From a bacterium (GTDB taxonomy: Archaea > Nanoarchaeota > Nanoarchaeia > Woesearchaeales > UBA10216): a DNA stretch of 14,399 bases. The notes under the pieces were generated by a model, which did not search any database, was not told where the DNA came from, and was given only the letters and a program-made list of their open reading frames with translations. Numbering within the stretch: the stretch's first letter is position 1; every line of letters begins with the position of its first letter. Location: contig JAAGZO010000214.1 in assembly GCA_024206195.1 (NCBI GenBank), forward strand, positions 1 through 14,399. Direction: 5' to 3'. Position numbers and translations under genes: made by a program. Shown here in pieces: positions 3,057 through 14,399 of this stretch.

Positions 3057-3313
3057 ATATAATTACAAGATATAAGCCTTGGTGGCTATATGTTGGAAGC
3101 CAAAGCCGAAGCCAAAGCCTAAGCCAAAGCCTAAGCCAAAGCCGAAGCCAAAGCCGAAGCCTAAGCCAAAGCCAAAGCCAAAGCCGAAGCCAAAGCCGAA
3201 GCCGAAGCCAAAGCCAAAGCCAAAGCCGAAGGCGAAGCCTAAGCCTAAGCCGAAGCCAAAGCCAAAGCCGAAGCCGAAGCCAAAGCCAAAGCCAAAGCCG
3301 AAGAGGGTTATAA
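3053..3313 (+). CDS. Possible Ser/Arg/Gln-repeat ORF with the best translation start
   Basis: ATG 3053 has the best initiation context around the hexanucleotide tract: an ATGA overlap with the upstream stop and GGAG (3044-3047) at good spacing. It reads MNIITRYKPWWLYVG, then an (S-Q/R/L)n repeat, ending RRGL at 3313 (86 aa). However, the tract's variable base is the second codon position here, giving Gln, Arg or Leu, so no conservation is visible in this frame. It may be an entry point from which ribosomes shift to the Lys-Pro frame, or a short leader. Compare the overlapping KP-frame entry. Confidence 0.35.
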   Translation: MNIITRYKPWWLYVGSQSRSQSLSQSLSQSRSQSRSLSQSQSQSRSQSRSRSQSQSQSRRRSLSLSRSQSQSRSRSQSQSQSRRGL

Positions 3314-3426
3314 TGGAAACAGAAAATAACCTCTCCATTGACTGGTGGCGCTATCATGAGAGATATGATTCCAGGGTATTGTTTTTAATATGGAGAAATA
3401 TTCAATTCAGGATAGGGAGGTATTGA
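3079..3426 (+). CDS. (Lys-Pro)n repeat ORF fused to 'METENN' domain, copy 2
   Basis: The frame is open from TTG 3079 (GTG 3082 is an alternative) through 33 Lys-Pro pairs and one Lys-Ala, then continues without a stop into METENNLSIDWWRYHERYD and ends QFRIGRY at 3426. Neither TTG nor GTG has an SD, and a stop lies just upstream (3073-3075). So either translation reaches this frame by shifting from ATG 3053, or only the METENN part is made from ATG 3313, which has its own AGAGGG SD. Variation in the tract is almost wholly synonymous here (CCA/CCG/CCT), favouring this frame as coding. A KP arm would be extended and strongly basic. The METENN product from 3313 is the safest part. Confidence 0.5.
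   Translation: MVAICWKPKPKPKPKPKPKPKPKPKPKPKPKPKPKPKPKPKPKPKPKPKPKAKPKPKPKPKPKPKPKPKPKPKPKRVIMETENNLSIDWWRYHERYDSRVLFLIWRNIQFRIGRY
3097..3303 (+). repeat. AAGCCN hexanucleotide tandem repeat
   Basis: There are 34 tandem units of AAGCCN plus a final AAG. Reading the units, N is A in 17, G in 11 and T in 5, and one unit is AAGGCG. All units are 6 bp, so slippage never changes the reading frame. The units encode Lys-Pro in one frame and Ser-Gln/Arg/Leu in another; the third forward frame is broken by TAA. Reverse frames give Gly-Phe/Leu and Trp/Arg-Leu repeats that are not credible genes. Confidence 0.95.
3311..3353 (+). repeat. 43-bp direct repeat, copy 2
   Basis: Identical to 2618-2660. It encodes the start of the intact METENN copy (ATG 3313). 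The sequences diverge immediately after the GGTGGCGCTA end. Confidence 0.85.
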
Positions 3427-4602: not shown

Positions 4603-4793
4603 CATATAAATTTTTAATTACCAAACAGACATGGAAAAACAACAGCGGAAACACTAAGTTCTCCATAATAAAAGTTTCGTTAGACGTTGATACACTGGAA
4701 GAAGCTGTCTGTCGTATACATGCGAAGTACCCTAATTATCATGTTGACATAGATTGGAGGAGTGATGCAGGTAATCATTGCCGGAGGGCGTAA
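4599..4793 (+). CDS. Small hypothetical protein
   Basis: The 64-aa product starts at ATG 4599 (ATGA overlap), with GAGGA (4585-4589) upstream. It opens MTYKFLITKQTWKNNSG, continues with a beta-like KFSIIKVSLDV stretch, then a helix (TLEEAVCRIHAKYP) and a short YHVDIDW strand, so it may be a compact alpha/beta domain. The last 29 nt overlap the SLOG gene in another frame. Function unknown. Confidence 0.6.
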   Translation: MTYKFLITKQTWKNNSGNTKFSIIKVSLDVDTLEEAVCRIHAKYPNYHVDIDWRSDAGNHCRRA

Positions 4794-5145
4794 TATACAT
4801 GACTATTGCATCCTATTGGATTGTATAGTTAAGTCTAAATTTGACATAACATCTATCTCCTGTGGATGTTGTAGTGGAGTAGACGAACTAGGCAGAAGAT
4901 GGGCTCGTCAGAACCAGATACCTGTGAAGTTTTTCCCGGCCGAGTGGAAGAAGTGGGGGCGGAAGGCGGGTCCTATAAGGAATAAGGAGATGGCAGTAGC
5001 CTCTAGTGCCCTCATCCTTCTCTGGGACGGTAAAAGCAAAGGGAGCCTCAACATGTTCTATGCCGCTAAAAACTATGGATTAAAGGTTTACGAGAGGATT
5101 ATTGATGGACCAGAAAGTATTGCAGATAAAACTGCGAAAAAGTGA
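4765..5145 (+). CDS. SLOG / DUF2493 (YspA-like) family protein
   Basis: The 126-aa product opens MQVIIAGGR, the Rossmann-like first strand and glycine turn of SLOG proteins. It continues with SGVDELGRRWA (37-47), FFPAEWKKWGRKAGPIRN (56-73, the AGPIRN signature) and LLWDGKSKGS, the order typical of DUF2493. SLOG domains bind nucleotides or nucleotide-derived signals; many phages carry them with no defined substrate. ATG 4765 is preferred over GTG 4762 because GGAGG (4756-4760) is too close to the GTG. Its 3' end overlaps the first RHH gene by 41 nt, suggesting cotranscription. Confidence 0.82.
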   Translation: MQVIIAGGRNIHDYCILLDCIVKSKFDITSISCGCCSGVDELGRRWARQNQIPVKFFPAEWKKWGRKAGPIRNKEMAVASSALILLWDGKSKGSLNMFYAAKNYGLKVYERIIDGPESIADKTAKK

Positions 5146-5242
5146 AATTGAGCGTTTAGAACTCCTGAGAAAGGAGTACGGATTTTCAAGGGCAGACTTA
5201 ATCAAACAGGCTGTTCGAGAGTTTATTGAAAAGAATTCTTGA
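5105..5242 (+). CDS. Ribbon-helix-helix (CopG/Arc-like) DNA-binding protein 1
   Basis: The 45-aa product follows the classic RHH layout: strand KVLQIKLRK, helix A (SEIERLELLRKEY), turn GFS, and helix B (RADLIKQAVREFIEKNS). RHH dimers insert the paired strands in the DNA major groove and usually repress transcription from short repeated half-sites. The start is ATG 5105 with AGAGG seven bases upstream, inside the end of the SLOG gene. The stop codon TGA is embedded in the -35 box TTGACA of the promoter for the second RHH gene. Confidence 0.75.
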   Translation: MDQKVLQIKLRKSEIERLELLRKEYGFSRADLIKQAVREFIEKNS

Positions 5243-7496: not shown

Positions 7497-7658
7497 ACTT
7501 ACACGGAACCGAAGGTAAGTGTTCCATAGGTCCCAGTAATACATATACCAAGTAACAACCCCTAAACACATTTGCAGTATACCCGTTTAAATTTTAGAAA
7601 TTCTATATTTTTTTAAGCTATAATCCTATTTTTTAAGAGAGTAGCTCACAGGGAGAGA

Positions 7659-7702
7659 GGAGCGTTCAGGAGTAGAGAGGTATTATTCTCCTAAACCGCT
7701 CC
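7659..7702 (+). other. Large imperfect hairpin
   Basis: GGAGCG (7659-7664) pairs with CGCTCC (7697-7702), and AGGAG (7668-7672) with CTCCT (7688-7692). The short TTC/AAAC internal region can add two pairs. The loop is 15 nt. A TATAAT lies about 35 bp upstream. It lacks a T-run, so it is not an intrinsic terminator. Confidence 0.5.
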
Positions 7703-7721
7703 CGCCCAGCCGCCCAGCTTC

Positions 7722-7734
7722 GGGGATACCCCAC
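7722..7734 (+). repeat. GGGGAYACCCCAC repeat, copy left of the terminase gene
   Basis: GGGGATACCCCAC is itself a GGGG/CCCC dyad. A 12-of-13 match (GGGGACACCCCAC) lies at 8623-8635 on the other side of the minus-strand gene, in the same orientation. Both are followed within 10-19 nt by CTCACTT. Confidence 0.5.
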
Positions 7735-7854
7735 CCCTTAGTACTCACTTGTGCAGTGCCCTAGTGTTCACTACTCACTATAGTGCTCAAAACAGCCAAT
7801 TTAAGCCATTTATATCATGCTATACCAATAGTAAGTCATAAGGCTATGCTTATA

Positions 7855-7872
7855 ATATACTATATGGTATAT
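7855..7872. promoter_or_regulatory. GTATAT dyad like the RHH operator
   Basis: ATATAC (7855-7860) and GTATAT (7867-7872) form a perfect 6-bp inverted pair six bases apart. The same half-sites occur at the RHH promoter (5250-5275), and the 8-mer GGTATATG is shared. A TATAAT (7851-7856) overlaps the left half. A second target of an RHH regulator is possible. Confidence 0.3.
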
Positions 7873-7971
7873 GGGTACTCCACCGGGAGTAATTGACACA
7901 TACGACCTAGAATGGCCAGTTAGTGGGTAAGGGGTGTTGAGAGGGGTATGCGGATAATGTACTATTGTAGG

Positions 7972-8583: not shown

Positions 8584-8622
8584 ACTGTTCTATCCTTTCA
8601 CTTCGATTCTCTTAGAAATTAT

Positions 8623-8635
8623 GGGGACACCCCAC
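8623..8635 (+). repeat. GGGGAYACCCCAC repeat, copy right of the terminase gene
   Basis: GGGGACACCCCAC pairs with the copy at 7722-7734. It is followed by a GTGAG (8640-8644) / CTCAC (8654-8658) hairpin, and lies in the 5' leader of the minus-strand gene. Confidence 0.5.
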
Positions 8636-8694
8636 TATCGTGAGTGTAGGGCTCTCACTTCGTTCAAGATATGGGCTCTTTCTTAAAATAAAAT

Positions 8695-8723
8695 TTGACT
8701 TTTGGTCTATGCCGCCCTATATT
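8695..8723 (+). promoter_or_regulatory. Strong sigma70-type promoter, plus strand
   Basis: TTGACT (8695-8700) and TATATT (8718-8723) are separated by exactly 17 bp and preceded by an A/T-rich stretch. Predicted start is near 8730. It faces away from the minus-strand gene and toward the accessory operon, but an intrinsic terminator at 8859-8887 lies between it and the first gene. Confidence 0.75.
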
Positions 8724-8887
8724 AGATACAGCTTAATATTTGAATTGATAAAGAACTATTAATTTTAATCACTTAACAATAGGGGCTAATTATGCGGATT
8801 AAATAAACAACCATTCTCAACAGAGATACACGATAATATATAATTAATTAGATATTATAGCCTTGTCATAACCGGCAAGGCTTTTTC
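8724..8887 (+). ncRNA. Candidate small RNA or attenuated leader
   Basis: The segment from the predicted start (about 8730) to the terminator (8887) is ~158 nt and contains no ORF beyond a four-codon MRIK after AGGGG. It is AT-rich, with the perfect inverted pair ATAATAT/ATATTAT just before the terminator stem. Two readings fit: a stand-alone phage small RNA, or a leader whose terminator controls read-through into the 9071-13854 operon (attenuation or antitermination). Nothing in the sequence decides between them. Confidence 0.45.
8859..8887 (+). terminator. Rho-independent terminator
   Basis: A perfect 7-bp stem, AGCCTTG (8859-8865) with CAAGGCT (8876-8882), encloses a 10-nt loop and runs directly into TTTTT. 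It is the clearest intrinsic terminator in the window and acts on + strand transcripts. No A-run precedes it, so it is not bidirectional. The rest of the spacer to 9070 is gene-free. Confidence 0.85.
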
Positions 8888-9051
8888 TATGCCCTTTCAC
8901 GTATTAATACTATTACTGCCCGCTTGTGCACTACTGCAAACTTTCTTTACTTTCTAATCGTTTTTGCTATCTATTCAATCGAAAAAGGCTACAATTCTTT
9001 CTCTTTTCTGCTATCTTTGGGATATGCCAGTAAAAACTTTTACAACACAAT

Positions 9052-12251: not shown

Positions 12252-12840
<589 letters not shown>

Positions 12841-13080: not shown

Positions 13081-13410
13081 ATGAAACACACACCAAAACC
13101 ATGGAATATTGATTATGGAAATTGTCATGTTGGAGGTATTGCAACGGTATATGGTCTTCCTGGCGAAAGAAAGATGCTTTCTCCCGATAAAAGATGGGCA
13201 GAAATATGGGCTCCTCATTCTATCGATGGAAAAACTCAAAAAGCCAATTTGGACCTAATCGTCGCGGCTCCTGATTTACTGGAAGCCCTGAAAGAAATGA
13301 TTATAGCCACTGACTGGGAAAACCCTCCAAAAAGAGGAAATGCTATCTACCTGGATGCAGTTGCCAGACCAGCTGCCTTAAAAGCTATTAAAAAGGCGGA
13401 GGAATCATGA
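13081..13410 (+). CDS. Phage hypothetical protein, 'AAPDLLEALK' type
   Basis: The 109-aa product starts at ATG 13081; an in-frame ATG at 13075 is only two bases from AAGGAG, so the second is favoured. It opens MKHTPKPWNIDYGNCHVGGI, as many phage proteins of this type do (HTPxPW). The signature ANLDLIVAAPDLLEALKEM (about 57-75) is followed by PAALKAIKKAEES. Such proteins are frequent in phage accessory clusters and have no established function. The end overlaps the next ATG. Confidence 0.78.
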   Translation: MKHTPKPWNIDYGNCHVGGIATVYGLPGERKMLSPDKRWAEIWAPHSIDGKTQKANLDLIVAAPDLLEALKEMIIATDWENPPKRGNAIYLDAVARPAALKAIKKAEES

Positions 13411-13640
13411 GTAAACCAGCATTTCCAAGACCAATGTCCTGTGATCCTGAAGATTATCGAAACCCTGAATATTATTGTGGTCAGACAGGCATGACCATGC
13501 TTGAATACGCCTCTCTTGAAATATTAAAAGGGTTGATGCTTCGACATAAGGAAGATGGATATGAGGATGACGCCGCAATATCAGAATCCGTTAGACTAGC
13601 AAATAGATGGATAGAACGCATTGAAATAGAAAAGAAATAA
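13407..13640 (+). CDS. Phage hypothetical protein, 'GMT' type
   Basis: The 77-aa product starts at ATG 13407 (ATGA overlap) with GCGGAGGA upstream. It opens MSKPAFPRPMSCDPEDYRNP; GQTGMTMLEYASLEILKGLM and ISESVRLANRWIERIEIE follow. The PAFPRP start and GMTxxxYxxxxxLxGLM helix, then a second helix, match a family I recall as common in phages beside the AAPDLLEALK type, which fits its neighbour here. Function unknown. Confidence 0.75.
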   Translation: MSKPAFPRPMSCDPEDYRNPEYYCGQTGMTMLEYASLEILKGLMLRHKEDGYEDDAAISESVRLANRWIERIEIEKK

Positions 13641-13680
13641 GCTACGTCGAAGAAGATGAAGAACACGAAAGGAGACAGAA

Positions 13681-13854
13681 ATGATTGAATTACTAAGAAT
13701 TGGCATTCCAACAACAGTAATATTCATAGCCTGCATGGTTTTCATATGGGCCCCCGACAAATGCTGGAAAGGAATAGGCCTAGCATGGATACTAGTACCC
13801 TTTTTCATTCAAATTATGAGGATAGCAGATGCCCTGCAAAATATTTCAAAATAA
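13681..13854 (+). CDS. 57-aa two-helix membrane protein
   Basis: The start is ATG 13681 behind AAAGGAGA. Two hydrophobic helices, IGIPTTVIFIACMVFIW (about 7-23) and GIGLAWILVPFFIQIM (about 31-46), are joined by PDKCWK, with a polar end. Holin-like in size and topology but with no lysin nearby. It is the last gene of the accessory operon; the structured non-coding block follows directly. Confidence 0.6.
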   Translation: MIELLRIGIPTTVIFIACMVFIWAPDKCWKGIGLAWILVPFFIQIMRIADALQNISK

Positions 13855-13883
13855 TACTTGTATTATGGGTTTAAGTATATTAT

Positions 13884-14171
13884 CTTGGGAGAAGTGCTCT
13901 AGGTTGGTGTCATGGCCAAACCGAAAGCCCTCCCGACATCGGGTTGAGCACTTCTCTAAAAGTCGGGAAACAAGGATGTCGGAATCTAACATGAAATTTT
14001 CCGAGACCAAAAACCCAGAGTTTTTCTCTGGTCTGAGCTTTCCTCAACAAGAGCGAGCGAGTGAACACGTTATTGTCAACTCGGATGGAGCTTGAGAGGG
14101 TGCGCAATGGGCGGTGGACACGTTCATTGGGGGGTTCTTCCCGGCATTACCTAAGATTGTGTGATCTTGGG
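13884..14171 (+). ncRNA. Candidate structured non-coding RNA with pseudoknot potential
   Basis: The block has no credible gene but many nested helices. P1: GAGAAGTGCTC (13889-13899) with GAGCACTTCTC (13946-13956), 11 bp. Inside it, GGTTGG/CCAA-a-CC (13902-13922) and CCCG/CGGG (13932-13943). CCGACATC (13933-13940) is an 8-bp complement of GATGTCGG (13975-13982) outside P1, a pseudoknot; CCCGAC/GTCGGG (13962-13967) competes. Further helices: TCGGAA/TTCCGA (13979-14004), CCAGAG/CTCTGG (14015-14031), CGAGT/ACTCG (14058-14083) inside CTCAA/TTGAG (14043-14096), CAATG/CATTG (14105-14129) and CCTAAGAT/ATCTTGGG (14150-14171). The single T-G wobble in the last favours the + strand. The class is not recognised. 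Confidence 0.5.
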
Positions 14172-14195
14172 GGCTGGGGGGTTTTGGTCTATACT
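14167..14195 (+). promoter_or_regulatory. Possible promoter for the last gene
   Basis: TTGGGG (14167-14172) and TATACT (14190-14195) are 17 bp apart. The -35 is poor and overlaps the last hairpin of the structured block. It would drive the partial gene at 14245. Confidence 0.3.
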
Positions 14196-14244
14196 ACGTA
14201 TTATTTTAAAAGCGAAGCGAAATGATTAAACAGAAAGGGATAAA

Positions 14245-14399
14245 ATGGAAGCTGATAATATAGGTAAAAAAGAGATATTAGAATTACTGGATAGAATGGA
14301 GGCTATGGGCCTTCCAATGGTGGAAGAATGCAGAAGAGAACTAGAAATTGCTGAAATGACAGGTTCAAAATTATTATCAAATATTGACAATGAAGATAT
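14245..14399 (+). CDS. Hypothetical protein, 3'-partial
   Basis: The start is ATG 14245 behind AAAGGGAT; 51 codons are visible before the window ends. It opens MEADNIGKKEILELLDRMEA, then MGLPMVEECRRELEIAEMTG and SKLLSNIDNED. Helical and acidic, with coiled-coil character. Not recognised. An alternative short ORF from ATG 14222 ends after 13 codons in another frame and is less likely. Confidence 0.6.
   Translation, partial: MEADNIGKKEILELLDRMEAMGLPMVEECRRELEIAEMTGSKLLSNIDNED

Follow-up and report, generated by a model that had tools for sequence, protein, structure and literature searches.

What is encoded in the 390 nt (13855-14244) that separate two genes of a phage accessory operon? An earlier note on this DNA had picked out positions 13884-14171 for their structured look, and the block could be a gene, the leader of the gene that follows, a site that acts as DNA, a spacer that happens to fold, or an RNA in its own right. 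We examined it within the window, that is, the whole stretch of DNA analyzed here (14,399 nt). In our assessment the chance is close to even, if slightly short of it, that 13884-14191 of the plus strand encodes a structured non-coding phage RNA of about 310 nt with two modules, a model that draws its structural evidence from the folding of one single sequence.

Results

Genomic context and coding potential

Family matches to a DnaB-type helicase, a VRR-NUC nuclease and a terminase small subunit identify the window as phage DNA. Among the best-listed helicase relatives in the phage collection, identity is about 30%, and that collection holds no near DNA match to the window taken as a whole. The window appears to be one complete contig, which carries no direct terminal repeat of 12-300 bp. 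Elsewhere in the window, a frame at 3079-3426 (plus strand) contains a long Lys-Pro repeat, and on both strands several frames stay open through this repeat. The block is flanked by two genes:

13681..13854, plus strand: upstream gene, 57 aa, without a Pfam or PHROG match
14245..14399, plus strand: downstream gene, open at the contig end, without a family match

The stop codon of the upstream gene lies 33 nt 5' of the first predicted domain (D1), and the protein search with the downstream gene returned no relative except its own entry. The earlier note had described the rest of the operon as packed, which is true of the accessory operon, where gaps in a hand-picked gene list do not exceed 197 bp between 9563 and 13854, but not of the window beyond it, since the same list has gaps of 475 bp (7497-7971) and 466 bp (8584-9049), both longer than that of the block. 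By this list the block occupies the longest gap after 9050. The two longer gaps flank the reverse-strand terminase small subunit gene on both sides, and there is moderate folding inside them (z of -1.85 for 7600-7900 and -1.75 for 8600-8900).

The absence of a supported ORF between the genes, also noted earlier, held up in the frames tested. Six frame stretches that overlap the block have codon scores of -0.15 to 0.09, similar to those of the controls (reversed genes average 0.04, shifted genes 0.01, the shift being by one). The score was trained on the 25 reference genes themselves, 24 of which lie at 0.10-0.35 and the other at -0.06. The downstream gene, which was outside the training set, is coding-like at 0.36, and the upstream gene scores 0.15. 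The longest forward ORF in the block has no homologue among about 5.8 billion proteins and no Pfam or PHROG match. A protein-coding block is rejected on the codon score of all six stretches and on the lack of homologues and family matches for this longest forward frame.

Exact pairings

The sequence observation that first drew attention to the block is confirmed: both the perfect 11-bp stem 13889-13899/13946-13956 and the exact 8-nt complement between 13933-13940 and 13975-13982 are present. The stem is the longest perfect inverted repeat in 13855-14244, and none of 150 dinucleotide shuffles of this stretch contained one of 11 bp (10 bp was reached in 3 of 150). A perfect repeat of at least 8 anywhere in 390 nt is ordinary (80/150 shuffles); an 8-nt complement between these two particular loops is uncommon, occurring in 20 of 5,000 loop shuffles. 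The block has a second inverted repeat, of 13 nt with 12 matching, and its direct repeats are limited to two short families of two copies each.

Predicted structure

Folding places two domains and one hairpin in the block, which we group into a 5' module (D1 and P2, side by side) and a 3' module (D2):

13888..13957, plus strand: Domain 1 (D1), outer stem 13888-13899/13946-13957, with 11 perfect bp and one end pair
13902..13922, plus strand: hairpin X in D1, state B, 13902-13908/13915-13922, from the constrained fold; unconstrained P 0.41-0.56
13926..13945, plus strand: hairpin Y in D1, state B, 13926-13930/13941-13945, from the constrained fold; unconstrained P only 0.18
13964..14003, plus strand: hairpin P2, 13964-13970/13997-14003, P 0.90-0.94
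14004..14190, plus strand: Domain 2 (D2), predicted to be a five-way junction, with closing stem 14004-14012/14182-14190 and four arms that are hairpins
14015..14031, plus strand: D2 arm a, 6-bp hairpin, P 0.92
14041..14100, plus strand: D2 arm b, long hairpin with interruptions, the three longer helices having P 0.86-0.98
14101..14133, plus strand: D2 arm c, hairpin core 14105-14113/14121-14129, P 1.0 for four core pairs
14137..14181, plus strand: D2 arm d, base 14137-14145/14173-14181 with P 0.84, tip 14150-14158/14163-14171 with P 0.97

What the outer stem of D1 encloses differs between two states, an extended hairpin in state A and a three-way junction in state B. State A, the minimum-energy fold, has no kissing contact and makes D1 one long hairpin, at -40.8 kcal/mol for 13884-14003. 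Forcing both octamers free gives state B at -35.8 kcal/mol, to which the octamer duplex would add -11.8 kcal/mol before any loop penalty; here the second octamer (13975-13982) remains in the loop of P2, and the first (13933-13940) is displayed in the 10-nt loop (13931-13940) of arm Y. The 8-bp contact can thus be read, in this model, as the kissing of two hairpin loops. Against it, a rival extended hairpin (P 0.44) takes up the first octamer about half of the time in the ensemble computed without the contact, and the arm that presents this octamer forms with P 0.18; the octamers are unpaired with probabilities of 0.49 and 0.33. A switch of D1 and P2 between the two states is possible.

The closing stem of D2 and its listed arm helices have mean pair probabilities of 0.83-1.0 across four contexts of 308 to 800 nt and are nearly independent of context. 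The 9-bp closing stem was absent from the stems listed earlier, and whereas the block had been taken to end at 14171, the predicted structure runs on to 14190. The 9-mer of the closing strand occurs three times exactly in the window and, with at most one mismatch, 9 times against 6.5 expected. As a separate observation, the 13-nt motif TTTTGGTCTATRC is found at 14182-14194, on the 3' closing strand of D2, and at 8700-8712, within a promoter-like site at 8695; these are its two exact matches, the motif was chosen after it had been sighted, and 38 of 200 shuffles had at least two matches at up to two mismatches.

Folding statistics

On the plus strand the fold of the block is more stable than its composition predicts, both for 13884-14191 as a whole (z -3.34) and for the D2 stretch 14004-14191 (z -4.00), with none of 500 shuffles as good in either case. 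The shuffles preserve dinucleotide content, so G-richness alone cannot account for these z-scores. The minus strand gives z -2.62 (7/500) and -2.93 (2/500) for the same two stretches, and 13884-14003 reaches z -2.94 (2/500) on the plus and -2.45 (5/500) on the minus strand; the plus strand is thus lower in all three stretches, by a modest difference. For the wider 390 nt the values are -2.64 (1/100) and -1.97 (4/100), respectively. Smaller pieces do less well: 13884-14000, which holds D1 and a clipped P2, has z of only -1.65 (7/100), and the D2 interior 14018-14176, which lacks the closing stem and truncates arms a and d, is no better than shuffled sequence (z -0.96, 18/100). The folding statistic of D2 leans on its closing stem.

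A plus-strand scan with 25 shuffles had ranked 14001-14200 first of 142, a result softened by the larger scan of both strands (200-nt windows, 142 on each strand and 284 in total, with 60 shuffles apiece; standard deviation of z across all windows, 1.19). There, 14001-14200 on the plus strand came fourth (z -3.06), behind the windows that start at 5201 (minus), 5101 (plus) and 3101 (minus). The folding statistic of the block is good, yet other sites in the window score as low. The windows at 5101 (plus) and 5201 (minus), with their strong z-scores, lie at a small open frame, ~5105-5242 on the plus strand, which overlaps the end of the gene at 4762-5145 and which, judging by eye, presumably encodes a protein resembling ribbon-helix-helix DNA-binding proteins.

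Transcription signals

Upstream of the block we found no convincing σ70 promoter: the best match agrees at 7 of 12 positions, while the window's 11 best sites agree at 10-11. A -10-like hexamer, TATATT, does lie at 13876-13881 just 5' of D1, without a -35 partner (7/12 overall), and no intrinsic terminator was found on the plus strand of 13400-14399. In another part of the window, a σ70-like site (TTGACT-17-TATATT) at 8695-8723 on the plus strand is followed, some 140 nt 3', by a hairpin and T run that look terminator-like by eye (~8861-8891, plus strand); together, these possibly make a short leader RNA or attenuator.

Known RNA families

By-eye comparison with five kinds of known RNA had suggested no match, and a covariance-model search with the 4,227 families of Rfam came out likewise empty, with no match on either strand of 13841-14260 at E up to 10. 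GOLLD, ROOL and pRNA should be among these families. Searching the whole window at E up to 1 gave five matches; all of them lie outside the block and fall short of the gathering score. Those to isrG and to miRNAs fall in the GCT repeat at 12531-12752 and were rejected, as was a CRISPR-repeat match at 14275-14302, inside the downstream gene. The repeat at 12531-12752 (plus strand) is Ala-rich and of low complexity, and the isrG and miRNA matches are likely spurious. ARAGORN predicted no tRNA and no tmRNA gene in the window. A group I or II intron, which would interrupt a gene with its two exons in continuity, does not fit: the upstream ORF stops by itself at 13854, the downstream ORF has a start of its own, and there is no Rfam match. 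A G-quadruplex was dismissed, there being no four-tract run on the plus strand.

Search for relatives

The block has no usable relative in the phage collection, where its three matches all have E values of 1 or more, in the plasmid collection or in the E. coli genomes, and no confirmed relative in the viral-contig and genome-contig collections. Locus searches require exact peptide stretches and direct patterns exact bases; therefore, moderately diverged relatives would be missed. Two motif scans of the viral contigs returned 34 and 21 stretches, which look like chance and were set aside: nhmmer found none of the 55, blastn matches were limited to 13-30 nt with E values no better than 0.22, tblastn with ten proteins of the window gave nothing, and none of the 34 continues into the second octamer in its flanks. 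One further candidate, MT839813.1, had E = 5 in the phage collection; in a set of 35 loci it reached E = 6e-4 with blastn and 0.039 with nhmmer, values that mean little because the locus had entered the set through the first match. We took it for chance as well, since no D1 stem was seen before the match and the sequence is coding by eye, with a resemblance that we take to be to IS66 transposase. For the protein at 13407-13640 there is a single relative, P0003, which shares 58% identity and is encoded on an NCBI contig of 37.9 kb. Searches with this relative or with the pair did not reach that contig in the viral or genome contigs (two short patterns) or in the plasmids, and gave only one weak match, at E 0.3, in the phage collection.

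Discussion

Weighing the explanations

Our analysis suggests that the block is a credible candidate for an unclassified structured phage RNA of about 310 nt. In the model that we prefer, an RNA from 13884-14191 would be made with the transcript of the accessory operon or cut from it; its 5' module would consist of the D1 stem and the neighboring P2 hairpin, with loops that an 8-bp kissing contact may lock, and its 3' module would be a five-way junction shut by the 9-bp stem. Such an RNA would presumably act during infection in folded form, as a scaffold, a protein-binding element or a regulator, rather than as a messenger, and would do so independently of the next gene.

A rival reading is a cis-acting leader. 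The block would then lie in the 5' untranslated region of the downstream gene (start at 14245), with a strand just upstream of D1 pairing with the ribosome-binding site (RBS) and start codon, and with the domains setting the timing of translation:

13859..13886, plus strand: possible anti-RBS strand, with the partner 14237-14262 at the downstream gene's RBS and start, within the native background

In its favor, the block ends about 54 nt 5' of the start codon on the same strand, and each of the three tested contexts that include the two pairing strands yields the predicted helix (mean P 1.0 for its outer part and 0.87 for the Shine-Dalgarno part). Its duplex energy of -16.0 kcal/mol is equaled by 7 of 1,000 shuffles of both sides, the RBS at 14245 is the best partner of 13859-13886 among 30 RBS regions, and by pairing over more than 150 nt this start ranks second of 28 (0.61). 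Yet 19 of 675 upstream stretches of 27 other genes pair with their own RBS at least equally well, the RBS region ranks only seventh of 28 starts by overall pairing, two other RBS regions come within 1.6 kcal/mol against the same strand, and with a wider 3' stretch 32 of 1,000 shuffles equal the value. Masking of the RBS is thus predicted but stays within the native background, and we dropped it as the main function; the leader as a whole we regard as quite unlikely.

That a G-rich, non-functional spacer folds well by chance is an unlikely explanation too, with several points in its favor: z-scores of about -3 or lower occur elsewhere in the window, the 8-nt complement is ordinary over 390 nt, the part of D2 without its closing stem does no better than shuffles, no relatives testify to conservation, and the block was picked in the first place for looking structured. 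What speaks against chance is that dinucleotide-preserving shuffles never matched the block or D2, and that the hand-picked gene list has no longer gap after 9050, in an operon that is tight elsewhere. We consider it highly improbable that the inverted repeats act as DNA, in an origin, a packaging signal or a protein-binding site. The perfect 11-bp repeat and the 13-nt one would fit such an element, as would the recurrence of the motif of 14182-14194 at the promoter-like site, but the lower z of the plus strand (a modest difference), the few direct repeats and the near-expected frequency of the closing-strand 9-mer in the window all point the other way.

Relation to known systems

To our knowledge, few kinds of large folded phage RNA have been described, and those such as GOLLD have no known function. 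The pRNA of phi29-type phages is a phage RNA of about 174 nt with pairing loops, and its loop pairing joins molecules. The block resembles it as a putative phage RNA whose loops may pair, the contact being a candidate one, and differs from it in that both octamers lie within one molecule, in its length and in having no Rfam match. Lysine and cobalamin riboswitches combine a multi-helix junction and a kissing contact upstream of a gene, an arrangement that the block shares in prediction; in the block, however, the possible kissing contact lies outside the five-way junction, Rfam returns no match, and the downstream gene has neither a family match nor a relative.

Further parallels are GOLLD, whose function is called unknown in the part of PMC12286853 consulted, and ROOL; the two are presented there as phage and prophage RNAs with kissing loops, often close to tRNA islands. 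Like them, the block would be phage-encoded, non-coding and multi-domain, with a candidate loop-loop contact. In contrast to them, it measures about 310 nt, where many GOLLD RNAs exceed 800 nt (same part of PMC12286853), it has no tRNA in its window, and it lacks an Rfam match even at E up to 10. Candidates in phages or close to phage genes also appear in surveys that look for structured RNAs, as far as the portions of PMC8040213 and PMC2864571 consulted go.

The earlier note had proposed a new phage RNA class or a divergent member of a large one. Of this reading, the folding statistics, the lack of coding signal in the tested frames and the empty Rfam search support a non-coding, structured and pseudoknot-capable block, but neither class assignment is established. 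We lean against, while keeping as a tentative idea, the fuller proposal of a new class of phage non-coding RNA, compact and two-module at about 310 nt, its kissing-loop switch of D1 and P2 being coupled to a five-way junction, in an unstudied phage lineage. At present the block is one candidate. If the proposal is true, such an independent class, smaller than the large phage RNAs and equipped with a kissing contact, would lend itself more readily to study, and it would suggest that RNAs of this sort are more varied than the catalogues show.
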